64,000 nt of DNA, from NCBI RefSeq assembly GCF_000383675.1, contig NZ_KB911823.1, positions 311,095 through 375,094 on the forward strand, written 5' to 3'. This stretch comes from Terracoccus sp. 273MFTsu3.1 (GTDB lineage: Bacteria > Actinomycetota > Actinomycetes > Actinomycetales > Dermatophilaceae). A program made the position numbers and the translations under genes. Positions 1 to 63,501 of this stretch are shown piece after piece. The notes below the pieces were generated by a model. That model did no database searches. It was not told where the DNA came from and was given only the letters and a program-made list of their open reading frames with translations. Every line of letters starts with the position of its first letter. Position 1 is the first letter of the stretch.

Positions 1-639
1 TTCGAGAGCCTGCGGGTCGCCGGCATCCGGTATGCCGACCTGCGCGGCTACTCCTACGACCGCACCGACGTCACGGCGCGGGCCCTCGCCAACACGTACG
101 CCCAGACGCTCGGCGCAGTGTTCACCCAGGAGTCAAAGCCGTTCGAGATCGAGATCGTCGTGGCCGAGGTCGGGGTCGACAGCGACACCGACCAGATCTT
201 CCGGCTCACCTACGACGGGTCGGTCGCCGACGAGCAGGGCTTCGTGGCCATGGGTGGCGCCAGCGACGCCGCCGAGGAGCGTCTCGGCACCGGCTGGCGG
301 CCGGGCATGACCCTGGCCGAGGTCCTGCGACTGGCCGTCGACGTGCTCGGCGCCGGCGAGAACGGCGAGCGCCGTGCCCTCGACGAGGGCCAGCTCGAGG
401 TGGCGGTGCTCGACCGCGACCGTCCCCGGCGCTCGTTCCGACGCATCGTCGGCCCGTTGCTGACGCGGCTGCTGGGGGAGACGCCCGCGCCCACTGAGGC
501 ACCCGCACCCACCGAGGCACCCGCACCCACCGAGGCGGCCGCCGGCGCAGATGACGCGGAGCCCGCTGCAGGAGAAGGCGGTCCGGCGAGCGCGGGCGGA
601 TCCGTGGACGGTCCCGGAGCTGCGACACCACCCGCCTGA
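1..639 (+). CDS. prcA: Proteasome subunit alpha, C-terminal part (5' end outside window)
   Basis: The frame is open from base 1 and gives 212 residues before TGA. The visible part matches the second half of bacterial 20S proteasome alpha subunits: an LRVAGIRYADLRGYSYDR segment, an ALANTYAQTLG helix and the KPFEIEIVVAEVG strand. The alpha ring gates the proteolytic chamber and docks the Mpa/ARC ATPase that delivers Pup-tagged proteins. After about residue 157 the protein becomes a disordered Pro/Thr/Glu/Ala tail with three PAPTEA repeats, as is usual for the variable alpha tail. pafA lies downstream on the same strand, beyond an oppositely oriented gene. The assignment is firm; the start is not in the window. 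Confidence 0.95.
   Translation, partial: FESLRVAGIRYADLRGYSYDRTDVTARALANTYAQTLGAVFTQESKPFEIEIVVAEVGVDSDTDQIFRLTYDGSVADEQGFVAMGGASDAAEERLGTGWRPGMTLAEVLRLAVDVLGAGENGERRALDEGQLEVAVLDRDRPRRSFRRIVGPLLTRLLGETPAPTEAPAPTEAPAPTEAAAGADDAEPAAGEGGPASAGGSVDGPGAATPPA
484..537 (+). repeat. Three tandem 18-bp repeats inside prcA
   Basis: Three nearly identical 18-base units (484-501, 502-519, 520-537) encode PAPTEA three times in the disordered tail of the proteasome alpha subunit. Units 2 and 3 differ only at the last base. In-frame copy-number change would alter only the length of the flexible tail. Confidence 0.85.
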
Positions 640-669
640 CGACCAGGGCACCGCGCCGCGGTGCACACG

Positions 670-706
670 ACGAAGGCCGCCCACCGAGATGGTGGGCGGC
701 CTTCGT
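670..706. terminator. Bidirectional hairpin terminator between prcA and the DivIVA-like gene
   Basis: A perfect 15-bp stem (671-685 with 691-705, extended by A670-T706) closes a five-base loop. It sits between convergent genes, so it can serve both. There is no long T-run, as is common in GC-rich actinobacteria. Its outer arm resembles that of the terminator after the cold-shock gene at 14.2 kb. Confidence 0.75.
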
Positions 707-750
707 GTCGCGCGGTGCCGTGACCCCGGATCCGGGGCGACGACGGTGCG

Positions 751-1977: not shown

Positions 1978-2260
1978 TTCCGTCCAATGCAGGGGATCGT
2001 GGAGGGGTACGGCAAGAGGGGACAGCGGCCATTGTGACAGCCACACGAGACTGACTATCACAGACGTCGGCCTGTGGGACACCGTGCCGGACGATCGTCG
2101 CGACACCGAGACACGGAGCGGACGCGCGACCCCCGGGAGGAGTCCTGGAGGGTCGGCCGGGGTCCCGAGCACGAGCGCCCGCACGTCTGTTCGCACCCGG
2201 GCGCGCGCGGCCAGCCGCGCCGATGCGTGGTCGTGCCCGACGGCCACGGGACCCGCCGCC

Positions 2261-2266
2261 TAGAGT
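2261..2266 (+). promoter_or_regulatory. -10 box for leaderless pafA transcript
   Basis: TAGAGT ends six bases before the pafA ATG at 2273, so the expected transcription start is the A of the start codon. No Shine-Dalgarno-like sequence is present upstream. Confidence 0.5.
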
Positions 2267-2272
2267 TGGTTC

Positions 2273-3664: not shown

Positions 3665-3798
3665 CCCGGAGGTGCCGGCCGGACCTGTGCGGACCTGTCA
3701 GTGCGCTGTGAAGCGCGCACAAGGGTGAGCGTTACAGTGGCTGGGATTTGCCCTGCGGGACCTCCACGCCCGCCCGCCCCGACCGAAAGTCTTCCCCT
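3665..3798 (+). promoter_or_regulatory. Intergenic region with hairpin and probable promoter of the FKBP lipoprotein
   Basis: A small inverted repeat (GTGCGC at 3701-3706, GCGCAC at 3715-3720) may end the pafA transcript. A TACAGT hexamer at 3733-3738 is a plausible -10 box and would give a leader of about 55 bases before the GTG at 3799. No convincing -35 was found. Confidence 0.35.
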
Positions 3799-5324: not shown

Positions 5325-6437
5325 TCAGTCCAGGTGTGACGCGCCCCGAACCAATCGGGCGGCATACCGCCCCGCGACGGCCGCGCCGAGGAATCCGGCG
5401 CGGTCGTCGTCGTACCCGCGCCCCATCGTGCGCAGGGGCACCGGCGTGTCGCGCAGCGCCGCGTCGAGCCCGTCGGTCGCCACCTCACGGAGCGTCAGCC
5501 GTCCCCGACTCGCGGCGCACAGGGCCTGAGCCTGCTCGAGCACCCGCACGCCCACCTCGCCGGCAAGCAGCGGCACCGGCACGTCGCCGGGCACGAGCGC
5601 CACGCGGCCGTATGCCGTGAGGCTGTGGTGGGAGACCCCGCGGTGCCGCTCGCGTGGGTCGGCCTCCGAGATCCGCAGGGAGCAGACGGGGCGGCCGCCG
5701 AGGGTCCCCGCAGCGTTGACGGCCTCGCCCGCCGAGGTGCCGGAGAAGCCCCACCGCGTGCCGGTGCCGAGGTTGCCGGGCCCCTGCGAGACGACGACGA
5801 CGTCGGCCCCGACGACGTGGTGCGCGGCCAGCAGGCCGGTGTGGACGTTGACCGCCTCGAGGTCGCCGCCGAAGGCCTGCCCGACCGTGATCGCAGCCTC
5901 GAGCCAGCCGGCCTCGCGCAGGCCGGCCACCGTCCGGGAGAAGTCGATGGGCAACGCGCCGCCGTCGGTCATGACGTAGGCGATCCGCAGGGAGGGGGCG
6001 GCGTCCCGCATCCCGGCGAGCACCGCGGGAAGGGCCGAGTGGAGGTCGGCCACGACGACGGGAAGGCCGGCGACGTCGTCGGCATCGGCGAGCACCGCGT
6101 GGTGCTCGCTGTCCTGCTCGTCGACGCCGAGGACCATCGTCTGGGAGGGCGTGTAGCGCGCCTTGACGACGTGGCCCGGCACGGCCGTGACGTCGTCGAC
6201 GGGACGGGGGAGCGCGTCGGGCGCGGCGACGACGATGGCCAGGCCGCCGGTACCCAGCCCTCGCTCGAGGGCGGTCGTGTTGAGCAGCACGGCGGTCCCG
6301 GGGGTGAGGTCGCCGACGACGTCGACGTAGCCGAGCGCCCGGACGACGTCACCAGACGGAAGCCGGACGGCATACTCGACCGCGCGCGCCCAGCGGGAGC
6401 GCACCTCGACCACGACACCCCGGCGCCACTGGATCAT
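5325..6437 (-). CDS. DUF3866 family protein
   Basis: 370 aa. The sequence matches the actinobacterial DUF3866 family: an N-terminal segment for a small beta barrel (VVEVRSRWARAVEYAVRL) and a longer alpha/beta domain with conserved blocks VVADLHSALPAV, MTDGGALP, GQAFGGDLEAVNV, SQGPGNLGTGT and HHSLTAYGRV. The function is unknown; repeated glycine loops suggest ligand binding, which is inference. Genes of this family commonly sit next to pafBC. It diverges from pafB. The TAGGGT at 6444-6449 ends six bases before its ATG, so the mRNA is probably leaderless. Confidence 0.85.
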   Translation of the reverse strand: MIQWRRGVVVEVRSRWARAVEYAVRLPSGDVVRALGYVDVVGDLTPGTAVLLNTTALERGLGTGGLAIVVAAPDALPRPVDDVTAVPGHVVKARYTPSQTMVLGVDEQDSEHHAVLADADDVAGLPVVVADLHSALPAVLAGMRDAAPSLRIAYVMTDGGALPIDFSRTVAGLREAGWLEAAITVGQAFGGDLEAVNVHTGLLAAHHVVGADVVVVSQGPGNLGTGTRWGFSGTSAGEAVNAAGTLGGRPVCSLRISEADPRERHRGVSHHSLTAYGRVALVPGDVPVPLLAGEVGVRVLEQAQALCAASRGRLTLREVATDGLDAALRDTPVPLRTMGRGYDDDRAGFLGAAVAGRYAARLVRGASHLD

Positions 6438-6514: not shown

Positions 6515-7546
6515 ATGAGCCCTGCGTCTGCCTCGGCCGACAAGACCGAACGGCTGCTCAACCTCATCCTCGCGCTGAAGTCCGCGCGGCGACCGGTCTC
6601 GAAGCAGAAGATCCGCGAGTCGCTGCCGGCCTACGCCGCCGCGACCTCCGACGAGGCCTTCGACCGGATGTTCGAGCGGGACAAGGACGAGCTGCGCGAG
6701 ATGGGCATCCCCATCACGACGACGGTCCTCGACGTCCTCTTCGACGACGAGGTCGGCTACCGCATCGACGCGAGCGAGACCACGCTGCCGGCGATCAGCT
6801 TCGAGGCCGACGAGGTCGCCGCCCTGGCGCTGGCCGCGCGCGCGTGGTCCACCGCGAGCATCTCCGGCGCCGCGTCCGCAGGCCTGCGCAAGCTGCGCCT
6901 CTCGGGCGTCGAGATCGACGAGTCCGTGGCCGCGGGTGCCGAGCCGCGCATCCGCACCAAGGAGCCGGCCTTCGAGGCCGTCCACGCCGCGGTGTCGGCC
7001 CTGCAGCCCATCACCTTCGACTACCGCAAGAACGACGGCGAGCTCACGACCCGCCACGTGCAGCCGTGGGCGCTGAAGAACTGGCACGGACGCTGGTACC
7101 TCACCGGCTTCGACGTCGACCGCGGCGACGAGCGCGCCTTCCGCCTGAGCCGCTTCGAGGGCACCGTGCGTCGCAAGGGACGGGCAGGTTCGTATGCCGT
7201 CCCGTCCGACCACGTGCCCGAGGTGGCCCTCGAGGCGCAGCTGCCCGAGCCCGAGGGCACCGCTGTCGTGCGGGTGCGGCACGGGAGGGGCCACACCCTG
7301 CGCCGGCACGCCCAGCGCACGACCGAGGTCGACGAGCGGTGGGCCGAGATCGAGGTGCCCTACCGCCGCGGCACGACCGAGCGCGACGTCGTCGCCCTCG
7401 GCACGCACGCCGTCGCCGTCTCGCCACCCGAGCTCGTCGCCGGGGTGAGGTCCGCGCTGCGGGCCGTGCTGGACGCGCAGGCGGGGCCGGCAGGGCTGGC
7501 GGGGCAGTCCGATGACGTGCAGGTGCGGACGGAGGAGCACGCATGA
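6515..7546 (+). CDS. pafB: WYL-domain transcriptional regulator PafB
   Basis: 343 aa. An N-terminal winged helix (residues about 10-75) is followed by a WYL domain (about 145-230) with the conserved WHGRWYLTGFD and FRLSRFEG stretches, and a C-terminal WCX-type domain. In mycobacteria PafB and PafC together activate the LexA-independent DNA-damage regulon; they do not ligate Pup despite the name. The stop codon overlaps the pafC start (ATGA), so the partners are translationally coupled. Confidence 0.93.
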   Translation: MSPASASADKTERLLNLILALKSARRPVSKQKIRESLPAYAAATSDEAFDRMFERDKDELREMGIPITTTVLDVLFDDEVGYRIDASETTLPAISFEADEVAALALAARAWSTASISGAASAGLRKLRLSGVEIDESVAAGAEPRIRTKEPAFEAVHAAVSALQPITFDYRKNDGELTTRHVQPWALKNWHGRWYLTGFDVDRGDERAFRLSRFEGTVRRKGRAGSYAVPSDHVPEVALEAQLPEPEGTAVVRVRHGRGHTLRRHAQRTTEVDERWAEIEVPYRRGTTERDVVALGTHAVAVSPPELVAGVRSALRAVLDAQAGPAGLAGQSDDVQVRTEEHA

Positions 7547-9961: not shown

Positions 9962-10867
9962 GTGTCCCAGCGTGTCGCCCTGATCGTCAACCCCACGTCG
10001 GGAAAGGGCGTCGGCCGAGCGATGGGCGAGGAGACGCGCAGGCTGCTCCACGCGGCAGGTCATGACGTCGTCGACGTGTCGGGCAGCGACTACCAGCAGG
10101 CCCGCATGCGGGCCCGCGAGGCCGTCGCCGACGGCGTCGACACGGTGGTCGTCGTCGGGGGTGATGGCATGGTCCACCTCGGGGTCAACCTCTGTGCGGG
10201 CACACCGTCGCGTCTCGCCGTCGTGGCGGCCGGGACGGGCAACGACTTCGCCCGCAACCTCGGCCTGCCGGTGCGTGACGCCCGGGCTGCCGTCGCACTG
10301 CTCGCCGAAGGACGCACGCGCGACATCGACCTCGGTCGGGTCAGCCACGGCGTGGCCGGCGAGAAGTGGTTCGGCGGGGTCCTCGGCGCCGGTTTCGACG
10401 CCGTCGTCAACGCTCGCGCCCAGCGCATGACGTGGCCGCGGGGGCAGATGCGCTACAACCTGGCAGTGCTGCGTGAGCTCCCCGTCTTCCGTCCCATCCC
10501 GTATGCCGTCGAGCTCGACGGGCGCCGGCTCGAGACGCGGGCGATGCTCGTCGCCGTCGCCAACACGACCTCCTTCGGCGGGGGCATGCGCGTGTGTCCC
10601 GACGCCGACGTCACCGACGGTCTCTTCGACGTCATGATCGTCCACGCGCTGTCGATCCCGTCGTTCCTCCGGGTCTTCCCCAAGGTCTACTCCGGAACGC
10701 ACACCACCCACCCGGCCGTCGAGATCCATCGCGCCCGGCGAGTTCGCTTGGAGGCGAGCGGTATCCACTCACAGGCCGATGGCGAGACGTTCGCCGACCT
10801 ACCGATCGACGCCGAGGTCGTGCCCGGTGCCCTGCACGTCGTGACCCCGATGGAGGTGCCTGCGTGA
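9962..10867 (+). CDS. Diacylglycerol kinase family lipid kinase
   Basis: 301 aa. The N-terminal VALIVNPTSGKG, the GGDGM catalytic loop and AAGTGNDFAR are the DAGK/sphingosine-kinase signatures, followed by the C-terminal beta-sandwich with DVTDGLFDVM and HSQADGE. It phosphorylates a lipid, most likely diacylglycerol, to feed phosphatidate back into phospholipid synthesis. The GTG start at 9962 has TAGCGT (9950-9955) exactly six bases upstream, so an internal leaderless transcript may start here, although read-through from tatC is also likely. It overlaps helY by four bases (GTGA). Confidence 0.92.
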   Translation: MSQRVALIVNPTSGKGVGRAMGEETRRLLHAAGHDVVDVSGSDYQQARMRAREAVADGVDTVVVVGGDGMVHLGVNLCAGTPSRLAVVAAGTGNDFARNLGLPVRDARAAVALLAEGRTRDIDLGRVSHGVAGEKWFGGVLGAGFDAVVNARAQRMTWPRGQMRYNLAVLRELPVFRPIPYAVELDGRRLETRAMLVAVANTTSFGGGMRVCPDADVTDGLFDVMIVHALSIPSFLRVFPKVYSGTHTTHPAVEIHRARRVRLEASGIHSQADGETFADLPIDAEVVPGALHVVTPMEVPA

Positions 10868-13743
10868 TCGCCACGTGGCCGAAGCTCGCGGAGTTCGCCG
10901 CCCGTCTCGACTTCCCGCTCGACGACTTCCAGACCGAGGCCTGTCGGGCGGTCGAGGAGGGCCGCGGCGTCCTCGTGGCGGCACCCACGGGAGCCGGCAA
11001 GACGATCGTCGGCGAGTTCGCGGTGCACCTGGCCCTCGCGACGGGGCGCAAGGCGTTCTACACGACCCCGATCAAGGCCCTGTCCAACCAGAAGTACACC
11101 GACCTCGTGCGCGTCCACGGCGCCGACCGGGTCGGCCTGCTGACCGGTGACGCCTCCATCAACGGCGAGGCCCCGATCGTCGTCATGACGACCGAGGTCC
11201 TGCGCAACATGATGTACGCGGGGTCGACGACCCTGCGCGGGCTCGGCTGGGTCGTCATGGACGAGGTCCACTACCTCGCCGACCGTTTCCGCGGGGCGGT
11301 GTGGGAGGAGGTCATCATCCACCTGCCCCCGGACGTCAGCGTCGTGTCACTGTCGGCGACGGTGAGCAACGCCGAGGAGTTCGGCGCGTGGCTCGGGGAG
11401 GTGCGCGGCGACACCGAGGTCATCGTCTCGGAGCACCGTCCGGTGCCGCTGTGGCAGCACATGATGGTCGGCCAGACGCTCTTCGACCTCTTCGTCGAGG
11501 AGCGCGACGGCCGCGAGGACGACGAGCACTTCGTGGCCGCACCGGGGCGCTACTCGGTGAGCGTCAACCCCGACCTCGTCCACGCCATCCGCGGCACCGA
11601 GGGTCGGGGTGCGTGGGACTCGCACTGGGTCAGCTCGCGCGGAGGCCGCGACAAGGGCCGTCCGCGCGGCAAGGGCGCGCGCGGCGGGTCCGGGGGCGGC
11701 GGACGCGGCGGACGGGACGACTGGGCCGGGCGGGGCCGTCGTGGCGCCGACGCGCCGGCCGGACGCGGGCCCGGCGGCGGCGACGGCGGACGCGGCTTCG
11801 CCCGTGGTGGTCGTCCCGGTGGCGGGGCGACCCGCGCGGAGGTCATCGAGCGCCTCGAGCGCGAGGGCCTGCTGCCGGCGATCACCTTCATCTTCAGCCG
11901 CGCAGGTTGCGACGGCGCCGTCGGGCAGCTGCTGTCGAGCGGCATGCGCCTCATCCCCGAGTCGGAGGGTGAGGCGAACCGTCGCCTCGTCGAGGAGCGC
12001 ATCCAGGGCCTCGCCGAGGAGGACCTGTCGGTGCTCGGCTACTGGGACTTCGTCGACGGCCTCTCGCGTGGGTTCGCCGCCCACCACGCCGGCATGCTGC
12101 CGACGTTCCGCGAGATCGTCGAGGAGCTGTTCACGGCCGGCCGGGTCAGGGCCGTCTTCGCGACGGAGACCCTGGCGCTGGGCATCAACATGCCAGCGCG
12201 GACCGTCGTGCTCGAGAAGCTCGTGAAGTTCAACGGCGAGAACCACGTCGACATCTCGCCCGCCGAGTACACCCAGCTCACCGGACGTGCCGGTCGCCGC
12301 GGCATCGACATCGAAGGTCATGCCGTCGTCCTCTGGAACCGTGGTCTCGACCCCGCCGGGGTCGCGGGCCTCGCGTCGACGCGCACGTACCCGCTGCGCT
12401 CGAGCTTCCGGCCGACCTACAACATGGCCGTCAACCTCGTGCGCCAGTTCGGCCGCGAGAGCGCCCGCGAGATCCTCGAGACGTCGTTCGCCCAGTTCCA
12501 GGCAGACCGGGCCGTCGTGGGCTTCGTCCGCACGGTGCGCCGCAACGAGGAGGCCCTCGCCGGCTACGCCGAGCAGATGACCTGCCACCTCGGCGACTTC
12601 TCCGAGTACGCCGCGATCCGCAACGAGATCCGCGACGTCGAGAAGGAGGGGGCCAAGGCCCGGTCGGCGTCGATGCGCACGGCAGCGGCGATCTCCTTGG
12701 AGTCGCTGAAGATCGGCGACATCGTGCGCATCCCCGCCGGACGTCACAGCGGCCTGGCCGTCGTCGTCATGCCCAACCGCGGCGGCAAGGGGGAGTCGGC
12801 GTCGCCCGCCGTCGTCACCGAGGACCACCAGCTGCGCCGGCTGACGCTGCACGACGTCCCGACACCCCTGGAGCCACTCGGCTCGATGCGCGTGCCCAAG
12901 CAGTTCAACGCCCGCAACCCCAAGGCTCGTCGTGACCTGGCGGCGACCCTGCGCGCGACGATGCCGCACGACCCGCCGCCGCGTCACCGTCAGGCCGACG
13001 GCGACCCGACGGACGACCGCGTCGACGAGCTGCGTCGGCGGATGAAGGCGCACCCCTGCCACCGCTGCCCCGACCGCGAGAACCACGCCCGTTGGGCTGA
13101 GCGCTGGTGGCGCCTCCGGCGCGAGACCGACGGCATCCAGCGCAAGATCGACGGCCGCACGAACTCCGTCGCCAAGACGTTCGACCGCATCTGCGAGCTG
13201 CTCGTCGAGATGGGCTACCTCGGGGTCGGCGGTCAGACGGTCACGCCTGACGGCGACCGCCTTCGCCAGCTCTACACCGAGAAGGACCTGCTCGCCGCCG
13301 AGTCGCTGCGCGAAGGGGTCTGGCGCCGGCTCGACCCGCCGTCGCTCGCCGCCATCGTGTCGACGCTCGTGCACGAGCCGCGCCGGGAGGAGACCGGACT
13401 CACGCCGCGGTGGCCCAACGACGACGTGCGCGAGGCGTACGACCGGATGATCCGGATCTGGTCCGACCTCGAGGACGCCGAGGGCGCCCTGACGCTCCCA
13501 CGCACGGGTATGCCGGACGGTGGCCTCGCGTGGGCCATGCACCGGTGGGCGAGCGGGCAGCGCCTCGAGGACGTGCTCCGGGGGACCGACCTCGCTGCCG
13601 GTGACTTCGTGCGTCGGTGCAAGCAGGTCATCGACCTGCTGGGTCAGCTGACCGACGCGGCGGACCCGGACCTGGCGACGACGGCCCGTCGGGCCAGTGA
13701 CGGCGTCCTGCGCGGGGTCGTGGCGGCCGACCGGCTCGACTGA
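10864..13743 (+). CDS. helY: DEVH-box RNA helicase HelY
   Basis: 959 aa, Ski2/Mtr4-like superfamily 2. Walker A APTGAGKT is at 40-47, the DEVH box at 133-136 and SAT at about 164-166. The second RecA domain has the ATETLALGINMPA and QLTGRAGRRGID motifs, followed by the winged-helix and helical bundle. It is predicted to unwind structured RNA or RNA-DNA hybrids using ATP. Residues about 258-322, between the two RecA domains, are an insertion made almost entirely of Gly, Arg and Asp with RGG repeats, likely disordered and RNA-binding. The GTG start overlaps the kinase stop; an upstream extension would not be protein-like. Confidence 0.94.
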   Translation: MIATWPKLAEFAARLDFPLDDFQTEACRAVEEGRGVLVAAPTGAGKTIVGEFAVHLALATGRKAFYTTPIKALSNQKYTDLVRVHGADRVGLLTGDASINGEAPIVVMTTEVLRNMMYAGSTTLRGLGWVVMDEVHYLADRFRGAVWEEVIIHLPPDVSVVSLSATVSNAEEFGAWLGEVRGDTEVIVSEHRPVPLWQHMMVGQTLFDLFVEERDGREDDEHFVAAPGRYSVSVNPDLVHAIRGTEGRGAWDSHWVSSRGGRDKGRPRGKGARGGSGGGGRGGRDDWAGRGRRGADAPAGRGPGGGDGGRGFARGGRPGGGATRAEVIERLEREGLLPAITFIFSRAGCDGAVGQLLSSGMRLIPESEGEANRRLVEERIQGLAEEDLSVLGYWDFVDGLSRGFAAHHAGMLPTFREIVEELFTAGRVRAVFATETLALGINMPARTVVLEKLVKFNGENHVDISPAEYTQLTGRAGRRGIDIEGHAVVLWNRGLDPAGVAGLASTRTYPLRSSFRPTYNMAVNLVRQFGRESAREILETSFAQFQADRAVVGFVRTVRRNEEALAGYAEQMTCHLGDFSEYAAIRNEIRDVEKEGAKARSASMRTAAAISLESLKIGDIVRIPAGRHSGLAVVVMPNRGGKGESASPAVVTEDHQLRRLTLHDVPTPLEPLGSMRVPKQFNARNPKARRDLAATLRATMPHDPPPRHRQADGDPTDDRVDELRRRMKAHPCHRCPDRENHARWAERWWRLRRETDGIQRKIDGRTNSVAKTFDRICELLVEMGYLGVGGQTVTPDGDRLRQLYTEKDLLAAESLREGVWRRLDPPSLAAIVSTLVHEPRREETGLTPRWPNDDVREAYDRMIRIWSDLEDAEGALTLPRTGMPDGGLAWAMHRWASGQRLEDVLRGTDLAAGDFVRRCKQVIDLLGQLTDAADPDLATTARRASDGVLRGVVAADRLD

Positions 13744-14763: not shown

Positions 14764-15705
14764 TCAGTCGATCCCGAGGGCGGAGATGACCCGGTCGAAG
14801 GACGACGTGAGGCCGTGCTCGACGGCCAGGCGTGACATCAGGGCGGGGTCGGCGACGGCCGACGGGGCGGCGAGGTCGATGTCGGGCACCGCGGCGTCCT
14901 TGGCCACCGCCACGACGCGTGGCGCGGCGTCGAGGTAGTCGCTCGCGGCCTCGAGCCGTGCGCGCTGGGCGCCCTTGATGGCGGGGTCGCCGGCGTCGAT
15001 GGCGGCCCGGATCGCCTCGAGCGTGCCGTAGGTGGTGATGAGCTTCGCCGCGGTCTTCTCGCCGATCCCGGCCACGCCGGGCAGGCCGTCGCTCGTGTCG
15101 CCCCGCAGGACTGCCATGTCGCCGTAGGCGGGCCCGCTGGAGACGCCGTACTTCTCCGCCAGGAACGCCTCGTCGACGAGGTCGGGGGAGCGCACGCCGC
15201 CACGGGCCGTGTAGACGACGCGTACCTGGTTCGCGTCGTCGACGAGCTGGAAGAGGTCGCGGTCGCCGGTGACGATGTCGACCGGCATCCGGCCGCTGAA
15301 CTCGGTGGCCAGCGTGCCGATGACGTCGTCGGCCTCGTAGCCGTCGACGCCGACCCGGGCGATGCCGAGTGCCGTCAGCGCGTCGACGATGATCGGTACC
15401 TGGACGCCGAGGGCCTCCGGCACGGTCTCGCCGGCGAGCTCGTCGGGCCCGGGCTCGGCGACGCGGTGGGCCTTGTAGGACGGGATGGCCTCGACCCGGA
15501 ACGCCGGGCGCCAGTCGTTGTCCCAGCAGGCGACGAGGTGCGTCGGGCGACCCCGCTCGACGAGCGAGGCGATCATGTCGAGCAGCCCGCGGACCGCGTT
15601 GGTCGGCACGCCGCTCGGCCCGATCACCTCGGGCACGCCGAAGAAGGCGCGGAAGTAGAGCGAGGCGGAGTCGAGCAGGAGCATCCTGGGGGCTCGGGAC
15701 GGCAT
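14764..15705 (-). CDS. 5'-3' exonuclease (FEN/PolA-type)
   Basis: 313 aa. It matches the stand-alone homologue of the 5' nuclease domain of DNA polymerase I: MLLLDSASLYFRAFFG at the N-terminus, DGYEADDVIGTLA and VTGDRDLFQLVDD acidic metal-binding clusters, and the LPGVAGIGEKTAAKLI helix-hairpin-helix. It should remove RNA primers or flaps. The ATG at 15705 has TACCCT seven bases upstream (15713-15718), so it is probably leaderless; the start codon itself lies in a GTATGCCG word. It diverges from the secreted beta-helix gene. Confidence 0.92.
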   Translation of the reverse strand: MPSRAPRMLLLDSASLYFRAFFGVPEVIGPSGVPTNAVRGLLDMIASLVERGRPTHLVACWDNDWRPAFRVEAIPSYKAHRVAEPGPDELAGETVPEALGVQVPIIVDALTALGIARVGVDGYEADDVIGTLATEFSGRMPVDIVTGDRDLFQLVDDANQVRVVYTARGGVRSPDLVDEAFLAEKYGVSSGPAYGDMAVLRGDTSDGLPGVAGIGEKTAAKLITTYGTLEAIRAAIDAGDPAIKGAQRARLEAASDYLDAAPRVVAVAKDAAVPDIDLAAPSAVADPALMSRLAVEHGLTSSFDRVISALGID

Positions 15706-15823
15706 ACGCGAGAGGGTACCGGGCCACGACGGGAGCGCACCTTGCCGAGGCCCCCCGGGGCCACGATGATGGCGTGAGAGCGCGACCACCCGGAGCGCAG
15801 CCCATCGTGGAGAGTCGACGACG

Positions 15824-19582: not shown

Positions 19583-20076
19583 GCGCGACCGATCCGGGCA
19601 CGGCGGGCTCGGGTGACCGACGCGAGGTCCTCGGGCGCCAGACCGATGTCGAAGCCGCGTCGGCCGCCGGACACGTAGACCGTCCCGAAGCCGTATGCCG
19701 TCTCGTCGAGGACCGTGGGCAGCGCGCGCCTCTGTCCGACCGGGGAGATGCCGCCGACGACGTAGCCGGTGCTGCGCTCGGCCGCTGCGGGGTCGGCCAT
19801 GGTGACGCTCTTGACGCCGAGCGCCGCGGCGACGGCCTTGAGGTCGAGCTGGCCGTCGACGGGCACGACGCCCACCGCCAGCGTCGTGCCGGTGTCGACG
19901 AGCAGGGTCTTGAAGACGCGGGAGGGCTCGACACCGAGCGCGGCCGCGGCCTCGAGGCCGTAGCTCGTCGCCGCAGGGTCGTGCTCGTAGGGGTGGCGGG
20001 AGTACGAGACCCCCGCGCGGTCGAGGGCGACGGTGGCTGGTGTCGACGGACCGTCGGCCTGGCGTTGCCTCGCCAT
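19579..20076 (-). CDS. ybaK: YbaK/EbsC-type aminoacyl-tRNA deacylase
   Basis: 165 aa. The YbaK fold is shown by HPYEHDP, SRVFKTLLVDT, LAVGVVPVDGQLDLKAVAAALG and the YVVGGISPVGQRR loop, which contains the catalytic-site Lys/Gly/Pro region typical of Cys-tRNA(Pro) hydrolases. It would edit misacylated tRNA. Start and stop overlap both neighbours (one base with TetR, four with MFS), implying translational coupling in an unusual gene set. Confidence 0.9.
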   Translation of the reverse strand: MARQRQADGPSTPATVALDRAGVSYSRHPYEHDPAATSYGLEAAAALGVEPSRVFKTLLVDTGTTLAVGVVPVDGQLDLKAVAAALGVKSVTMADPAAAERSTGYVVGGISPVGQRRALPTVLDETAYGFGTVYVSGGRRGFDIGLAPEDLASVTRARRARIGRA

Positions 20077-21573: not shown

Positions 21574-21614
21574 CGGCATACGTGCTTGTCGTGCTTGTCG
21601 TGCTGTCTTCTGTG

Positions 21615-27195: not shown

Positions 27196-27251
27196 GCGCC
27201 CTGAGCGCCCTGCTCGCTGACGTCCCGGCCGCACGGCATACGGTGAACCCC

Positions 27252-32164: not shown

Positions 32165-32281
32165 GCGAGGACTGTCCCACACGGTCGGCGCGAGGGCAGG
32201 GGGAGAGGCCGAAACACGCCGCGACGTCGGGCGCCCGTGGTCGGCAGACGGCATACGCCCCCGTCGATCCTCCTCGACTGA

Positions 32282-40110: not shown

Positions 40111-42072
40111 TCAGGCGTGCACGACGTCCACCGGGGCCTCGACGATCCACCACGCGGCATACGGACTCAACGACGCCAGCCCGTCCGCCCCACCGAAGAC
40201 GGGATAGCCGCCGAGCGCGTCGAAGGGATGCACGATGCCGACGTCGGCGAAGTGGCGGACCTCGACCGTCTGCCACGACGTCGTGACGTTGTACACGCAG
40301 ACCATCGAGCCGCTCGGGTGCGTGCGGACGACCGCCAGCACCCCGTCGTCGGTCTGGAGGATCACCCTCGTCTGCGCGGAGGCGTGCAGCTGCGGCAGAC
40401 CCGCGCGCACGCCCGCAAGGTGGCGCAGTCCCTGGAAGACCTTCCCGGAGACGGTGTCGAGGTCGCCGCGCCGGGCCGCGACGGCCCAGTCCAGACGCTC
40501 CCGGTGCGCCCACCGGTTGTCGTCCTCGTGACCGGGCTCGCGCGCCCAGTCCGGGTCGTTGGGCAGGCCGAGCTCGTCGCCACTCCACACGACGGGGATG
40601 CCTCCCCAGCCGGCGACGACCGCGTGGGCCAGGAAGAGGCGCGCCAGTCCCTGACCGATCCCGTCCTCGTCGGCGCGTGCCTCCGCGTCGGCCAGCCCCG
40701 TCAGCGATGCTGCCGTGCCGCTGATCCGCTTGTCGCCGGTCGCCGGGTTGTGCTGGAAGACGAGACCGTGCGCCCACGACCCCGGGTGGTCGCCGGAGTA
40801 CCAGTTCGACAGGAACCGGCGGTGCGCATAGCCGTCGAGACCTGCTGAGGCCGCGTCCCCGTCGTCGATGGCCCACCCGATGTCGTCGTGGCACCGGACG
40901 TAGCAGATCCACGTGCCGCTCGGCGGGGTCGTCGGGAGCGCCGAGAGCGCCTGCTTGGTGAGTCCGCTGCTGCCCGTCGCGAGCATCGACCAGACCTGCA
41001 CCATGAGGCTGTTGTGGTACGCGAGATCGCTGACCCGGCCGGCGTGCTCGCCCTGCCCGAGGTACTGCACGAGGTCACGCGGACCGACGATCGCCTCGGC
41101 CTTGAACGCGAGCGCCGGGCACGCGATGCGCGCCACCGTGCGCAGTGCCCGCGTGACGGCGTGGACCTCCGGCTGGTTCTGGCAGCTCGTGCCGAGCCGC
41201 TTCCACGTGAAGGCGATGGCGTCGAGCCGAAGCACCTCGACACCGAGGTTGGCCAGGTACAGGACGATGTCGGCGTACTCGACGAGGACGTCGGGGTTGG
41301 CCCAGTTGACGTCCCACTGCCATTCGTTGAAGGTCGTCCACGCCCAGCCACCGAGCTCCTCGTCCCACGTGAAGTTGCCCGGCGCGAAGTCCGGGAACAC
41401 CTCGGGCAGCGTGCGCTCGTAGGCGTCTGGCATGACGCGGTCGGGGTAGACGTGGAAGTAGTCCCGGTAGTGCGACTCCCCCGCCCGGGCGCGTCGGGCC
41501 CACTCGTGCTCGCGCGCCACGTGGTTGAGCACGAGGTCGAGCACGAGCGAGATGCCCTGCCCCCGAAGGTGGCTCGCGAGTCGGCGCAGGTCGTCGACGT
41601 CCCCGAGGTCCGAGCGGACCGTGCGGTAGTCCTGGACAGCGTAGCCGCCGTCGTTGTCCCCCTCTCGGGGCCGGAGCAACGGCATGAGGTGCAGGTAGCT
41701 GACACCGAGGTCGCGGAGGTAGCCCACTCGTTCCTGCAGTCCGTCGAGGTTGCCGGCGAACCGGTCGGTGTAGCAGGCGTAGCCGAACATGTCGGGCTGC
41801 TGGAGCCAGTCCGGCCGGAGCAGCCGGCGCTGGTCGAGGCGTCGCAGCTCGGGCGAGCGCTGCCGGTAGCCGGCGACGGCGCTCTCGACGAGGCGCAGGG
41901 CGAGCGCCGAGACGTCGTGCTCGGGGTAGAGGACCATGAGTGCGGCGACGAGGTCGTCGGACCACCGCTCGAGCCTCAGCTCGATCGTCTCGCGGTCGTG
42001 GTCGTCGAGGCCCGCGAGCAGCGAGGTCACCGAATCCGTCGTCGGTCGGACGTCGTGCGCAGCGTCGCTCAT
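40111..42072 (-). CDS. Amylosucrase (GH13)
   Basis: 653 aa. A helical N-terminal domain (about 1-95) precedes the (beta/alpha)8 barrel with [28 protein letters not shown] (nucleophile Asp), FKAEAIVG (acid/base Glu) and CHDDIGWA (stabilising Asp). These are the amylosucrase signatures; the family splits sucrose and builds an alpha-1,4-glucan with release of fructose. Trehalose synthase and sucrose hydrolase are close alternatives, but the [12 protein letters not shown] block favours amylosucrase. The ATG at 42072 has TTCAAT six bases upstream. Confidence 0.85.
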
Positions 42073-42781: not shown

Positions 42782-43189
42782 ATGACCGAGCAGACGGGTG
42801 AGGGCCGGATCGTGGCCGGCGACGGCGCGCACGACGGGATCGAGGTGTCGGACAACCCCGACCGCGGGCGCTTCGAGCTGCGCGACGGGGACCGCGTCAT
42901 CGGGGTGGCGAGCTACGCCGTCGTCCCGGGTGCCACACCCGACGGGCCCGCCCGCGTCGTCTTCTTCCACACGGAGGTCAGTCCCGCGTACGAAGGCCGC
43001 GGGCTCGCCGGGCGCCTCGCCGCATACGCCCTCGACGCCACGCTCGCCTCGGGCCGCTCCATCGTCGCGCTGTGCCCGTACATCAAGGTCTACCTCCGCC
43101 GGCACCCGGAGCCGTATGCCGCCCACGTGCTCGCGCCGACTCGGGAGGACGTCGCCGCGGCCGAGCGAGCGGCGGCCGCAGCGGGGTGA
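42782..43189 (+). CDS. GNAT N-acetyltransferase (YidJ-like, COG2388)
   Basis: 135 aa. FELRDGDRVIGVASYAVV, FFHTEVSPAYEGRGLAGRLAAYAL and the acetyl-CoA loop EGRGLAGRL identify the short GNAT family that includes YjdJ-like proteins; HPEPYAAHV at the end is typical. The substrate is unknown. CATGCT (42770-42775) six bases before the ATG may be the -10 of a leaderless mRNA. lhgO follows after seven bases, likely co-transcribed. Confidence 0.85.
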   Translation: MTEQTGEGRIVAGDGAHDGIEVSDNPDRGRFELRDGDRVIGVASYAVVPGATPDGPARVVFFHTEVSPAYEGRGLAGRLAAYALDATLASGRSIVALCPYIKVYLRRHPEPYAAHVLAPTREDVAAAERAAAAAG

Positions 43190-45770: not shown

Positions 45771-46382
45771 TCAGGCCCGGAGGTCGGTGAGCATCGACTC
45801 GAAGGGTGTGACCTGCTCGAACGGGTCGACCCGGTCACGTCGCGGCGAACCGTTGACGAGGCCCGCGAAGGCCGCGCCCGCGCGATCGATGCGCTCCCCC
45901 AGTCGACCTGCGTCGACGCTGCCCCAGTCCTCGCTGGCGGCGAAGACGGCCACCGGCGCGACGAGCGCGCCCAGGTGGGCGAAGAGCGGGCGGAGCGCGT
46001 GGTCGATCGCGAGCGAGTGACGGGCCGTGCCGCCGGTCGCGCCGAGCAGGACCGGGGTGTCGCGCAGGGCGTCCTTGGGCAGCACGTCGACGAGCATCTT
46101 GAACAGCCCGCTGTACGACGCGGCATACACCGGGGTGGCGACGATGACGGCGTCCGCCTCGGTGATCGCGTCGAGACGCACCTGCAGGTCGGGCGACGCG
46201 AAGCCGGTGAGGACGTTGTTCGTCAGGTCGTGGGCGACGTCGCGGACGTCGACGACCTCGACGACGACCTCGTGGGGCGCCAGCGCCCGGACCGTGGCCT
46301 CGGTGAGGCGGTCGGCGAGCAGGCGCGTCGACGACGGCTGCGTGATGCCGGCGGTGATGACCGCGATGTGGAAGGGGGTCAC
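45771..46382 (-). CDS. CE1759-family FMN reductase
   Basis: 203 aa. A flavodoxin-like NADPH-dependent FMN reductase: ITAGITQPSSTRLLADRL binds the FMN phosphate, VIVATPVYAASYSGLFKMLVD and LLGATGGTARHSL complete the site. It supplies reduced flavin to the LLM monooxygenase encoded just upstream; the two genes overlap by four bases (GTGA) and always pair in this family (CE1758/CE1759 of Corynebacterium). Confidence 0.9.
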   Translation of the reverse strand: MTPFHIAVITAGITQPSSTRLLADRLTEATVRALAPHEVVVEVVDVRDVAHDLTNNVLTGFASPDLQVRLDAITEADAVIVATPVYAASYSGLFKMLVDVLPKDALRDTPVLLGATGGTARHSLAIDHALRPLFAHLGALVAPVAVFAASEDWGSVDAGRLGERIDRAGAAFAGLVNGSPRRDRVDPFEQVTPFESMLTDLRA

Positions 46383-47542
46383 TTCGTCACCTCCAGGGTG
46401 GCTGCGGTGGTGGGCTCGGGCGAGGCACCGGTCACGTCGTCGACGGCGTGGACCGTGGCGTCGTGGGCGCCGCCCGCGACGGCGAGCCGGCTCGCGTGGG
46501 TCGGAGCGTCGGGGACGTGGGCGGGCTTGAGGGCGGCGAACTCCTTGCGGAGGACGGGGACGACCTCCTCGCCGAGGATGTCGAGCTGCTCGAGGACGGT
46601 CTTGAGGGGCAGGCCCGCGTGGTCGAGCAGCCACAGCTGACGCTGGTAGTCGCCGGCGTACTCGCGGAAGCCGAGCGTCCTCTCGATGACCTCCTGGGGG
46701 CTGCCGACGGTGAGCGGGGTCTGGCTCGTGAACTCCTCGAGCGAGGGGCCGTGGCCGTAGACGGGTGCGTTGTCGAAGTACGGACGGAACTCTCGCACCG
46801 CGTCCTGGCTGTTCTTGCGCATGAAGACCTGCCCGCCGAGCCCGACGATCGCCTGGTCGGCGCTGCCGTGGCCGTAGTGCTCGAAGCGGCGGCGGTAGAG
46901 CTGGACCATCTGCTTCGTGTGGCTGGCCGGCCAGAAGATGTGGTTGGAGAAGAAGCCGTCGCCGTAGTAGGCCGCCTGCTCGGCGATCTCGGGGCTGCGG
47001 ATCGAGCCGTGCCAGACGAAGGGCGGTATGCCGTCGAGCGGGCGCGGCGTCGACGTGAAGCCCTGGAGCGGGGTGCGGTACTTGCCCTGCCAGTCGACGA
47101 CGTCCTCGCGCCACAGCCGGTGGAGCAGCGCGTAGTTCTCGATCGCGAGCGGGATGCCGTCTCGGATGTCCTTGCCGAACCACGGGTAGACCGGGCCGGT
47201 GTTGCCGCGGCCCATCATGAGGTCCATGCGCCCGTTGCTCAGGTGCTGCAGCGTGGCGTAGTCCTCCGCGATCCGCACGGGGTCGGTCGTCGTGATGAGG
47301 GTCGTCGACGTCGACAGGATGATCCGCTCCGTCTGAGCGGCGATGTAGGCGAGCGTCGTCGTCGGGGCCGACGGGATGAACGGCGGGTTGTGGTGCTGTC
47401 CGGTCGCGAAGACGTCGAGGCCGACCTCCTCCGCCTTCTTGGCGATGGCGACGGTGGCCTCGATCCGCTCGTGCTCGGTCGGCGTACGGCCCGTCGTGGG
47501 GTCGGTGGTCACGTCGCCGACGGTGAAGATCCCGAACTGCAT
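46379..47542 (-). CDS. LLM-class flavin-dependent oxidoreductase, CE1758 family
   Basis: 387 aa, luciferase-like TIM barrel. FGIFTVGDVTTDPTTGRTP, GLDVFATGQHHNPPFIPSAP, STSTTLITTTDPVRIAEDYATLQHLSNGRMDLMMGRGN (in parts) define the CE1758 family. It likely oxygenates or desulfurises a small compound using FMNH2 from the partner reductase. A perfect inverted repeat (TGATTGA-CGAT-TCAATCA) sits immediately upstream, suggesting control by a MarR- or TetR-type regulator encoded elsewhere. An AAAAGGAG ribosome site precedes the ATG. Confidence 0.9.
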   Translation of the reverse strand: MQFGIFTVGDVTTDPTTGRTPTEHERIEATVAIAKKAEEVGLDVFATGQHHNPPFIPSAPTTTLAYIAAQTERIILSTSTTLITTTDPVRIAEDYATLQHLSNGRMDLMMGRGNTGPVYPWFGKDIRDGIPLAIENYALLHRLWREDVVDWQGKYRTPLQGFTSTPRPLDGIPPFVWHGSIRSPEIAEQAAYYGDGFFSNHIFWPASHTKQMVQLYRRRFEHYGHGSADQAIVGLGGQVFMRKNSQDAVREFRPYFDNAPVYGHGPSLEEFTSQTPLTVGSPQEVIERTLGFREYAGDYQRQLWLLDHAGLPLKTVLEQLDILGEEVVPVLRKEFAALKPAHVPDAPTHASRLAVAGGAHDATVHAVDDVTGASPEPTTAATLEVTK

Positions 47543-47576: not shown

Positions 47577-47732
47577 TACCGAACGTCGGTGGGGGCTCCC
47601 CCATTCCCGACCACGCCCACCCCCCGCCCGGGACCGGCCAACTCACCGTGGAGGTCGCAAACCACCGGGGTCCGACCGCGGCGAGTTGTGACCTTCTCGG
47701 TGTGTTGCGGGGGCACGTGGGATCCTGTCGCG

Positions 47733-50760: not shown

Positions 50761-50794
50761 GCGTATGCCGTGACCGGCGGCACGCGGCATACGC
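50761..50794. terminator. Terminator whose arms are two GTATGCCG words
   Basis: GCGTATGCCGTG (50761-50772) pairs with CACGCGGCATACGC (50781-50794) apart from a two-base bulge. It lies between the convergent phosphatase and glutamate-cysteine ligase genes. Confidence 0.65.
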
Positions 50795-52427: not shown

Positions 52428-55355
<2,928 letters not shown>

Positions 55356-61313: not shown

Positions 61314-61918
61314 GGGGTCACCACCCGAGGACGCTGCGCAAGCACGAGGCGCGCGTGGACGGCATATAGCACGGCGGCGAGCCAGTAGAGGACGACGCCC
61401 CACCACGCGAAGCCCCAGCCGATGGGGCGGGCGAGGTCGCCGAGCCAGTCGTCCCGGTGCGCGAGGAGCAGCAGGGGGAAGGCGTAGAGCAGGTTGAACG
61501 TGGCGGCCTTGCCGACGAAGTGAACGGGCAGGCCGAGCTGTCCCTTGGTGCGCAGGTAGAGCAGCATCAGGGCCATGACGACCTCGCGGGCAAGGAGCAC
61601 GACGACGAGCCAGACCGGGATGATCTCGCGCCACATGAGCCCGACCAGGGTCGTGAGGATGTAGAGCCGGTCGGCGATGGGGTCGAGGAACTGGCCGAGG
61701 CGGCTCTCCATGTTGAACCGGCGGGCGATCTTGCCGTCGAGGTAGTCGGTGACGCCCGAGAAGAGCAGCAGCAGGAAGGCCAGGCCGTCTCGCTCCGAGA
61801 CGATCGCCCAGAGGAAGACCGGCACGCCGAGAAGCCGGAGCACCGACAGCACGTTGGGGATCGTCAGCAGGCGCTCCGTCACGACGTGCTCGCGCTCCCC
61901 CGCTCTCTCGACCTCCAC
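61310..61918 (-). CDS. pgsA: CDP-alcohol phosphatidyltransferase (PgsA-like)
   Basis: 202 aa with about five membrane helices. The signature D(x)2DG(x)2AR(x)8G(x)3D(x)3D is complete: DYLDGKIAR, then GQFLDPIAD. It corresponds to PgsA2 (Rv1822) and likely makes phosphatidylglycerophosphate or cardiolipin. The GTG at 61918 has TAGGCT (61926-61931) seven bases upstream, fitting a leaderless start; an internal GTG at 61882 is possible. First gene of the pgsA-DUF881-sbp-DUF881 operon. Confidence 0.9.
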   Translation of the reverse strand: MEVERAGEREHVVTERLLTIPNVLSVLRLLGVPVFLWAIVSERDGLAFLLLLFSGVTDYLDGKIARRFNMESRLGQFLDPIADRLYILTTLVGLMWREIIPVWLVVVLLAREVVMALMLLYLRTKGQLGLPVHFVGKAATFNLLYAFPLLLLAHRDDWLGDLARPIGWGFAWWGVVLYWLAAVLYAVHARLVLAQRPRVVTP

Positions 61919-62076
61919 GGCGGCAAGCCTAACGGGCGTCCGGAGTGGTCGAGATGCGTCCCCGGCATCGATCCGGACACGACCCGTCGGCGGGCGGGAG
62001 TGGAGTCCGTGAGGAGCACTCGATGCTCGATGGCGCAGGTGCGTGCTCGCCGATCCGCTCTGGCACACTCGGCCCC

Positions 62077-63501
62077 ATGCCCGGCGGACACTCGCACAGC
62101 CATGCCCACGGATCCTCTGCAGCGTCCGGCACCGTCGAGGTCAGCACGCTGGCGCGGTTCGGCCTCACCCTCCTGATCGCGCTCGCCGCCGCGGCCACGA
62201 TCTTCGGTCTCGTGCGCTACTGGCCGGCGGAGTCGCAGGCGGCCGACCGGGTGGGCACGTCCGACTTCGCGGCTCCCGGGGTGACCTTCCCCGTCGCCGA
62301 GGTCCAGCGGGTCCTCCCGGCCTGCGAGGGTGCCGAGGCCGGCACCGGGGCCGCCCCTGCCGCCGGGCAGGGGGGTGACGTCGTCGACGGGAGCCCGACC
62401 TGCGGCGCGATCACGGTGCAGCTCGAACAACCCACCGCGACCTCGGGCGACGTGCGTCCGGTCGTGTCCGTCTCGGTGCCCCCCGCGGTCTCCACGTCGG
62501 GCCTGCGCGACGGCGACACCGTCATGCTGCTGCGGACCCCGCCCCAGGACACCCAGCCCGAGACCTACTCCTTCCTCCAGGTGCAGCGCGGCGCTCCCCT
62601 GTCGCTCATGCTCGCGCTCTTCCTCCTCGTCGTGGCGGTCGTCGCGCGTTGGCGCGGGATCCTGGCCCTCGTCGGTCTCGTCTTCGGCGGCTTCGTCGTC
62701 GTCAAGTTCATGCTGCCGGCCCTGCTCGAGGGCCAGTCCGGGCTGCTCGTGGCCCTCATCGGCTCCTCGGCGATCATGTTCGTCGTCCTCTACCTCGCCC
62801 ACGGGCTCTCGGTGCGGACGAGCACGGCCCTCGCCGGCACGCTCTTCGGCGTCGCGATCATTGCGGGTCTGGGTCTGCTCGCCGTCGACCTGGCACGCCT
62901 GAGCGGGGTCGCCAACGACGAGGGTGCCACCCTGGCCTCCTTCGTCACGACGATGAACCCGCGCGAGCTGCTGACGTGCGCGATCATCGTGGCCGGTCTG
63001 GGCGTCCTCAACGACGTGACGATCACCCAGTCCTCGGCCGTGTGGGAGCTGCGTGCGGCTGCCCCCTCGATGGGGCGACGGGCGCTCTTCCAGTCGGGCA
63101 TGCGCATCGGGCGCGACCACATCGCCTCGACCATCTACACGATCGTCTTCGCGTATGCCGGTGCCGCCCTCCCGGTGCTGCTCCTCCTCTTCCTCTACGA
63201 GCGCCCGGTGCTCGAGATGCTCCAGACGGAGTCGCTGTCGGAGGAGATCGTCCGCACGCTCGCCAGCGCCATCGGTCTCGTGCTCGCCGTCCCCGTCACG
63301 ACGGCGGTCGCCGCGCTCACCGTCGGTGCAGCGCGTCCGCCGGCGCCGGCGGACGGCGACGGACGCAGCCCCGGTCAGCCGCGAGCCCTCGACGAGCCGG
63401 AGCAGCATGGCCCCACGGCAGCTGACCTCGTCCGAGCTGCCAGCGGGCCGCCGGCTCCGTTGACGCGGGCCGAGGCACGCTCGAGGATGTCCTCCTCCTG
63501 A
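62077..63501 (+). CDS. YibE/F family membrane protein
   Basis: 474 aa. A His-rich N-terminus (GGHSHSHAHG, possible metal binding) precedes one helix (about 22-45), an extracytoplasmic beta domain (to about 165) and seven or so helices. FGGFVVVKFMLPALLEGQ, YLAHGLSVRTSTALAGTL and GVLNDVTITQSSAVWELRAA match YibE/F. Function unknown. Divergent from pgsA; ATG at 62077 has no ribosome site and a weak CACACT box seven bases upstream. Confidence 0.88.
   Translation: MPGGHSHSHAHGSSAASGTVEVSTLARFGLTLLIALAAAATIFGLVRYWPAESQAADRVGTSDFAAPGVTFPVAEVQRVLPACEGAEAGTGAAPAAGQGGDVVDGSPTCGAITVQLEQPTATSGDVRPVVSVSVPPAVSTSGLRDGDTVMLLRTPPQDTQPETYSFLQVQRGAPLSLMLALFLLVVAVVARWRGILALVGLVFGGFVVVKFMLPALLEGQSGLLVALIGSSAIMFVVLYLAHGLSVRTSTALAGTLFGVAIIAGLGLLAVDLARLSGVANDEGATLASFVTTMNPRELLTCAIIVAGLGVLNDVTITQSSAVWELRAAAPSMGRRALFQSGMRIGRDHIASTIYTIVFAYAGAALPVLLLLFLYERPVLEMLQTESLSEEIVRTLASAIGLVLAVPVTTAVAALTVGAARPPAPADGDGRSPGQPRALDEPEQHGPTAADLVRAASGPPAPLTRAEARSRMSSS

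Follow-up and report, generated by a model that had tools for sequence, protein, structure and literature searches.

The Word in the Window

The stretch of DNA considered here, referred to as the window, covers 64,000 nucleotides of Terracoccus sp. 273MFTsu3.1 (contig NZ_KB911823.1, positions 311,095 to 375,094 of the forward strand), whose genome, hereafter the source genome, comprises 4,938,734 bases in 18 contigs. Scattered through the window are 25 exact copies of an asymmetric word of eight letters, GTATGCCG, 15 of them on the + strand and 10 on the - strand. Seventeen copies lie inside called genes and eight outside them; the gene calls come from a simple in-house script, not an established program, and overlook atypical genes. 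The copies are as follows.

30..37, + strand: at the window edge, outside any called gene
5360..5367, - strand: sense, CGG TAT GCC GCC
5610..5617, + strand: antisense, ACG GCA TAC
6368..6375, - strand: sense, GAG TAT GCC GTC
7192..7199, + strand: sense, TCG TAT GCC GTC
10501..10508, + strand: sense, CCG TAT GCC GTC
13508..13515, + strand: sense, GGT ATG CCG, in a DSHCT/DEAD helicase gene
15700..15707, - strand: intergenic by our gene calls
19693..19700, + strand: antisense, ACG GCA TAC
21574..21581, - strand: intergenic by our gene calls
27234..27241, - strand: intergenic by our gene calls
27814..27821, + strand: sense, CGT ATG CCG
32249..32256, - strand: intergenic by our gene calls
34933..34940, + strand: antisense, ACG GCA TAC
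35969..35976, + strand: sense, CCG TAT GCC GTC
37715..37722, + strand: intergenic by our gene calls
40155..40162, - strand: sense, CCG TAT GCC GCG
43114..43121, + strand: sense, CCG TAT GCC GCC
46121..46128, - strand: sense, GTG TAT GCC GCG
47026..47033, + strand: antisense, GGC ATA (rare Ile codon), in a luciferase-like monooxygenase gene
50763..50770, + strand: left arm of an intergenic inverted pair (hairpin)
50785..50792, - strand: right arm of the same inverted pair
53921..53928, + strand: antisense, GGC ATA (rare Ile codon), in gcvP
54257..54264, - strand: sense, ATG TAT GCC GTG, in gcvP
63153..63160, + strand: sense, GCG TAT GCC GGT

The original prediction, made from the letters of the window alone, had listed these 25 positions, and every one of them proves to be an exact copy. 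It had also stated that only a few copies would be expected, and 100 dinucleotide shuffles of the window give a mean of 0.83 and a maximum of 4. The base that follows the word is T in 13 copies, C in eight, and A and G in two each, so that the described preference for T or C holds in 21 of 25 cases; the statement that both orientations are common agrees with the 15 and 10 copies on the two strands. Copies had also been placed in gaps and in a terminator stem; eight copies lie outside called genes, and the pair at 50763/50785 is an inverted repeat whose RNA folds at -22.7 kcal/mol.

Enrichment and Selection at Synonymous Sites

The enrichment extends far beyond the window. The whole source genome contains 1133 and 1111 copies on its two strands (2244 together), compared with 116 and 141 (257 together) of the reversed word used as a control. 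Against an order-3 Markov background, 140 copies were observed where 1.83 were expected in 264 kb of the source genome, 640 versus 7.56 in 800 kb of genome G068, and 251 versus 4.04 in 400 kb of genome G129 (labels with G denote genomes, those with L sampled stretches, and those with g genera of the family). Counts near the Markov expectation, named in the original prediction as a possible outcome, were thus not found in these genomic samples. The 24 words that differ from GTATGCCG by one letter occur at 0 to 5.9 times their expectation in the source genome, where counts are small, and at 0 to 3.6 times in G068 and G129, indicating that the word is kept almost exactly.

Inside genes, the word overrides codon choice. 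In 200 kb of the source genome, Tyr codons in the context G-Tyr-GCCG are TAT in 52 of 67 cases, while those followed by a non-Ala codon are TAT in 31 of 1040. Ile codons that stand after CGGC and before C are ATA in 10 of 39 cases, and otherwise before C in 2 of 392; Ala codons between CG and TAC are GCA in 26 of 49 cases, and otherwise before TAC in 0 of 82. The same is seen in G068, where TAT makes up 155 of 168 Tyr codons in the context of the word and 347 of 1929 before a non-Ala codon. The proposal that the word forces rare codons (ATA at 47026 and 53921, as well as TAT) is therefore well founded. The accompanying claim of frame independence did not survive, because in the same 200 kb the sense copies within genes are in the frame G TAT GCC G in 52 of 53 cases, and the antisense copies divide into CG GCA TAC (26 of 36) and C GGC ATA C (10 of 36).

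This frame bias leaves the enrichment unexplained, because the usual synonymous codons give way only in the context of the word, and because the density in the same 200 kb is higher between genes (0.90 per kb) than in coding sequence (0.52 per kb). In G068 the corresponding densities are 1.17 and 0.74 per kb. An explanation by Tyr-Ala or Met-Pro codon pairs, which had been put forward as the finding that could overturn the idea of a selected word, is contradicted by this codon displacement and by the intergenic density in these two genomes. Synonymous sites are under selection for GTATGCCG.

Strand-Specific Spacing

The main new result is that copies of GTATGCCG avoid each other over about 1 kb in a strand-specific manner. 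All pairs of copies 8-1000 bp apart were compared with random placement. Pairs in the same orientation are depleted in the source genome (15 observed, 37.0 expected), in G068 (126 and 251.2), in G129 (42 and 76.6), and in three further genomes, G007, G065 and G043, taken together (13 and 32.1). Pairs in opposite orientation show no such depletion, with 41 observed and 36.4 expected, 310 and 251.0, 109 and 75.7, and 34 and 31.9, respectively. The ratios are thus 0.41-0.55 for the same orientation and 1.07-1.44 for the opposite one, and beyond 1 kb both orientations lie between 0.85 and 1.25 of expectation. Seven other, equally common words of G068 do not show avoidance in the same orientation (ratios 0.99 to 1.44). 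Among opposite pairs of G068 closer than 1 kb, convergent (89) and divergent (88) arrangements are equally frequent.

The effect is present in every gene setting of G068, where same and opposite pairs number 32 and 72 within genes, 13 and 44 between two different genes, and 31 and 61 where intergenic copies are involved; the source genome gives 6 and 18, 4 and 4, and 5 and 12. A rule of one site per gene was rejected for G068, as its two-gene pairs are biased alike, the numbers in the source genome being too small to judge. A function in messenger RNA was rejected too, because antisense copies avoid each other as well: same-orientation pairs of two antisense copies were observed 4 times in G068 against 31.3 expected, once in the source genome against 4.2, and 5 times in G129 against 15.2. 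The corresponding values for two sense copies are 36 against 73.5, 4 against 10.5, and 12 against 18.7.

Two known signals served as controls, each on the narrow base of a single genome. The first was a genome that contains 1863 copies of GCCGTCTGAA in 1.8 Mb and was assigned to Neisseriaceae on this ground; 460 kb of it, with 516 uptake sequences, were used. Its same-orientation ratio is 0.49 at 60-200 bp and 0.58 at 200-500 bp, and its opposite-orientation ratio is 0.62 and 0.44 at these distances; at 500-1000 bp the ratio is 0.89. Hairpins produce a peak at 8-60 bp (125 opposite pairs, 15.0 expected), which raises the total of opposite pairs to 316, with 286.7 expected. Since the uptake sequence avoids itself in both orientations over 60-1000 bp, the strand-specific pattern of GTATGCCG departs from it. 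Close opposite pairs at 8-60 bp reach 1.5-2.95 times expectation for GTATGCCG and 8.3 times in the Neisseriaceae control. The second control was Chi in 550 kb of E. coli (142 sites), where same-orientation pairs are in excess (38 versus 22.3) and opposite pairs near expectation (13 versus 14.0). In other words, GTATGCCG is like an uptake sequence in the range and saturation of its spacing, yet it is counted strand by strand, and it is unlike E. coli Chi.

A bias relative to origin and terminus, which the original prediction had suggested looking for, is absent from G129, the one genome in which it was determined: 126 copies lie on the leading and 125 on the lagging strand. The replichores were set by GC skew, with the stretch L040, of negative skew, assigned to the left arm; the skew of G068 was too weak to place an origin.

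Conservation, Flanks and Turnover

The word is conserved between species. In the congener G113 (94% identity), all 23 aligned window copies are intact, with a chance probability of 1e-4 given a mean 8-mer identity of 0.67. In G130 (89% identity, mean 8-mer identity 0.46), 19 of 20 are intact (chance 4e-6), counting as kept the site at 53921, where the word is whole and an insertion follows just after it. Six other congeners provide weaker evidence, with kept and aligned copies of 3/5 in G067, G142 and G136, 6/8 in G094, 2/2 in G122 and 1/2 in G148. Copies present in a relative and without counterpart in the source genome (four in G113, three in G130, and two each in G142 and G094) point to a turnover of word sites. 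Together with the enrichment and the codon override, this conservation strongly supports the original view of a selected DNA word.

The bases around the word show preferences as well. The mean extended form is S-GTATGCCG-Y-S-N-G-S, and the flanks are genus-specific. Intergenic copies of the source genome (n=32) favor C at -1 (0.75), T at +9 (0.62) and G at +12 and +13 (0.66 and 0.78), and those of G068 (n=148) favor G at -1 (0.60), C at +9 (0.59) and G at +10 and +12 (0.77 and 0.63). In G129 (n=52), T or C takes up 0.84 at +9 and G 0.71 at +12. An A at +9 does not exceed 0.03 in the intergenic copies of any of the three.

Distribution Across Genomes and Islands

The enrichment is restricted to one family, Dermatophilaceae in the GTDB lineage, and it is patchy within it. 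Across 149 genomes from 53 genera, counts range from 7 to 4724, the latter in a genome of 4.2 Mb that is the densest of the family. Of the 130 genomes that are at least 90% complete (19 less complete ones were left out), 67 have at least 200 copies per Mb and are called rich, 46 have at most 30 per Mb and are called poor, and 17 lie between. Nearly complete genomes with at least 200 per Mb are found in 26 of the 53 sampled genera. A sample of the order contains 198 genomes, 14 of them from the family; the other 184, from 19 families, reach at most about 65 per Mb; relative to the reversed-word control, they extend from lower values to roughly fourfold. Seventy-nine named loci of other organisms (1.6 Mb) hold 26 copies in total, with no locus containing three or more, while a 14.7-kb contig of an uncultured Tetrasphaera holds 10. 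Judged by this contig, the best relative with a name, the family would probably be Intrasporangiaceae.

Rich and poor genomes are mixed by kinship, which suggests that the word was probably gained or lost more than once. Genera g26 and g36 contain both kinds. Among eight genomes compared by pairwise identities rather than by a tree, the rich G096 is closest to the poor G069, and the rich G068 to the poor G001, in AdnA, AdnB and ComEC; for the rich G099, the poor G125 is the clear nearest neighbor in ComEC and leads by a small margin in AdnA, and in AdnB it shares first place with others. Four genomes of intermediate density (G104, G124, G137 and G019) carry 81-190 copies per Mb, and G104 has 404 copies, compared with 1102-1901 in the other seven sampled genomes of its genus. 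In these genomes, the word may be decaying after loss of its reader. Five 20-kb samples of poor genomes, a small set, revealed no other word of comparable strength.

GTATGCCG is nearly absent from two foreign-looking islands. In G068, two adjacent gaps of 9.0 and 13.9 kb with one copy between them contain a TrwC relaxase, an AbiEi-type gene, a SIR2-domain protein and type I restriction genes. In G098, the contig start L020 is free of the word for 20 kb (GC 0.652) and forms a defence island with BREX BrxL, an Eco57I-type methylase, a Mu-type transposase, GmrSD and an AbiV-domain protein. The longest word-free gap of G068 (13.9 kb, GC 0.650) and that of the source genome (11.9 kb, GC 0.619) are low in GC; several other long gaps are not.

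A Self-DNA Exchange Signal as the Preferred Reading

Taken together, these features are best accounted for if GTATGCCG is an iterated signal for the exchange of self DNA, comparable to uptake sequences except that it is read strand by strand. This reading is tentative, and its probability is put at roughly 0.4. A more specific version, in which the word is a strand-autonomous mark of self DNA, read on single-stranded DNA with a reach of about 1 kb and representing a new kind of genome-wide signal, is advanced with somewhat greater reserve. From the saturation within 1 kb it seems that a single copy can serve a stretch of this length, and from the way the two strands behave independently, that a copy on the opposite strand is no substitute. 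The simplest machine with both traits would be one that handles single strands of about 1 kb, as in the import step of transformation or in end resection. Two points in this are inferred: DNA import or exchange as the process at work, and recognition of the word on a single strand. In such a scheme, an import or end-processing machine would meet DNA, recognize GTATGCCG on the strand being handled, and give preference to some 1 kb of that strand for import or recombination. The word would then be spread and maintained by transformation or recombination, so that one copy per kb and strand would be enough.

Genes of known uptake machines do not single out the carriers. Near-full PilB matches occur in four genomes, all of them rich in the word, and PilM in 5 of 149, so both were discarded as correlates for being too rare. 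ComEC, present in 145 of 149 genomes (128 of 129 good ones), and the Tad ATPase, above the cut-off in 135 of 149 and with some match in all 129 good ones, are nearly universal and do not discriminate; a hint that genomes lacking a Tad match had lost the word was not upheld. Transformation of M. luteus requires tad loci (PMC4322843), and the wide presence of ComEC and Tad in the family counts in favor of the exchange reading.

Several observations weigh against the exchange reading. The classical type IV pilus genes are rare, as the PilM count illustrates, and five carriers (G004, G032, G034, G072 and G115) have Tad ATPase matches below the cut-off only. Word-poor genomes also possess ComEA, ComEC and Tad. 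Alignments of ComEC (four carriers against four non-carriers) and ComEA (four against three) revealed no carrier-separating residues beyond those of other splits; the search pattern missed ComEA in one of the eight loci, and two ComEC frames were over-long. The mutual avoidance of GTATGCCG is limited to copies in the same orientation, and its close inverted (hairpin) pairs are far fewer than those of the uptake control. G129 shows no intergenic excess (0.61 per kb versus 0.63 in coding sequence), and the genes scanned in sparse stretches of the source genome, G068 and G129 (L010, L062 and L047) appear ordinary or unknown. Finally, no report of transformation in the family was found in the literature searched.

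Alternative Readings

A Chi-like recombination signal is the main alternative. Here AdnAB or another helicase-nuclease would read a single strand at a double-strand break and switch to repair, and the word would also mark self against the nuclease. Such a role is possible in logic because GTATGCCG acts strand by strand, which suits the reading of a single strand, and the scarcity of the word in the two foreign-looking islands is in keeping with it. A candidate enzyme is also present: two adjacent large open reading frames of AdnAB type were found in all eight genomes examined, and a PDDEXK_1 match in all 149 of the family. In the source genome, the pair encodes proteins with UvrD-helicase and PDDEXK_1 domains; among solved structures, the two chains of 7sjr, 6ppj, 6ppr and 6ppu, which we take to be mycobacterial AdnAB, are their best relatives. 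However, a comparison of four carriers with four non-carriers gave three separating columns in AdnA and none in AdnB, where the 70 possible splits give chance means of 2.7 and 2.6, and a residue signature of AdnAB as the mark of a reader was thus dismissed for these eight genomes. RecBCD was rejected as well, for RecC does not follow the word: it is patchy (59 of 149 genomes), was not found in the source genome, and is commoner in poor (26 of 46) than in rich genomes (20 of 67; p 0.006, uncorrected for phylogeny). Moreover, the copies of G129 show no leading-strand bias, E. coli Chi clusters where GTATGCCG avoids itself, and the enrichment of GTATGCCG is larger than that of Chi. A Chi-like site was among the proposals of the original prediction; its logic stands, while the missing strand bias in G129, the distribution of RecC, the lack of an AdnAB signature in the eight genomes, and the lack of avoidance in E. 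coli Chi make it unlikely.

Another directional process of the chromosome would be the start of single-strand transfer, of a conjugation-like or gene-transfer-agent-like type, or a loading site for a chromosome organizer or repair helicase. The strand-specific avoidance with its reach of 1 kb would suit such a process, and so would the patchy presence in the family, down to genera g26 and g36, as expected of a mobile or dispensable reader. On the other hand, the analysis turned up no gene that could serve as a candidate, packaging signals should have a reach of several kb, and the lack of replichore polarity in G129 argues against functions in replication or segregation. The segregation site of the original prediction is disfavored by the same lack of polarity and by the patchy presence within one family, and this group of explanations as a whole is regarded as improbable.

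A target of DNA modification or restriction, with enrichment as a consequence of modification, is very doubtful. The word is asymmetric and exact, and its length is one known for some modification enzymes, but restriction sites are usually avoided rather than enriched, modification alone would not predict enrichment, and same-strand avoidance within 1 kb is not predicted either.

Finally, mutation bias, codon-pair bias or a sequencing artefact, to which the preference of genic copies for Tyr-Ala and Ala-Tyr frames and the presence of the reverse complement of GTATGCCG inside the Illumina P7 adapter might point, can practically be set aside, as the word is denser between genes in the source genome and G068, its flanks vary and differ from the adapter, different synonymous neighbors are all shifted toward it, homologous sites are conserved in other species, and we know of no mutational reason for same-strand avoidance.

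Other Observations

With this adapter overlap, adapter trimming might clip genuine sequence in carrier genomes. Apart from GTATGCCG, the window holds an element of 70-80 bp at about 47639-47712, of which many copies with 75-88% identity occur on both strands of the source genome and its congeners; it looks like a dispersed, REP-like intergenic palindrome. In addition, a near-palindrome of 57 bp at about 45709-45765 matches its own reverse complement at 88%.

Significance and Comparison with Known Systems

To our knowledge, comparably strong iterated words are found solely in Neisseriaceae, Pasteurellaceae and cyanobacteria, and we know of no earlier iterated signal of the uptake or exchange type in Actinobacteria. 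The searched literature likewise contained no report of this genomic word, or of an uptake, Chi or iterated word like it in Actinobacteria, although most subscription papers lay outside the search and absence from print does not follow. An actinobacterial word at no less than 200 per Mb in 26 of 53 sampled genera suggests frequent gene exchange that prefers self, in bacteria whose transformation has hardly been studied. If the strand-autonomous reading is true, such a word is carried by about half of the sampled genera of one family and was gained or lost more than once. Since carriers stand beside non-carriers within g26 and g36, the reader gene should be findable by comparing gene content. 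The orientation-specific spacing is itself a simple test that may separate a double-stranded from a single-stranded reading, and it can be applied to any iterated word.

The closest likeness is to the DNA uptake sequence (DUS) of Neisseriaceae and the uptake signal sequence (USS) of Pasteurellaceae. These share with GTATGCCG thousands of copies, a density of about one per kb at the densest, and restriction to one family (PMC3630211, PMC2397512, PMC1939737). Further common traits are both orientations without chromosome polarity (determined for GTATGCCG in one genome), genus-specific variants, scarcity in foreign-looking islands (two of them for GTATGCCG), frequent intergenic copies (for GTATGCCG in two of three genomes), some close inverted pairs and mutual avoidance below 1 kb. 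Unlike the hosts of DUS and USS, the actinobacterial carriers are mostly without classical type IV pilus genes. A kinship to DUS by way of ATGCCGTCTG was rejected, because the shared ATGCCG does not extend into the TCTG that follows it in DUS: TCTG follows GTATGCCG in 3 of 140 copies of the source genome, 0 of 639 of G068 and 3 of 251 of G129.

Chi of E. coli (GCTGGTGG, read by RecBCD) has in common with GTATGCCG that it is an over-represented octamer and acts on one strand, which for GTATGCCG is suggested by the spacing only. The sequence flanking Chi reportedly matters. In contrast to Chi, GTATGCCG has neither leading-strand bias (in G129) nor same-orientation clustering, its genome of origin lacks a detectable RecC, and it is almost completely conserved between two pairs of close species. 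For E. coli Chi, a higher frequency in the core genome is reported (PMC8022716).

HIP1 of cyanobacteria (GCGATCGC) is likewise a highly iterated octamer within a clade. It is a palindrome linked to methyltransferases (PMC4390886), whereas GTATGCCG lacks such symmetry and is spaced according to the orientation of its copies.

Overall, the strength, exactness and conservation of GTATGCCG, its genus-specific flanks and its patchy presence in one family are a better fit to a signal of the uptake type, while the strand rule is a better fit to one of the Chi type. A DUS-like role, absent from the original prediction, fits more of these features than the three roles proposed there.

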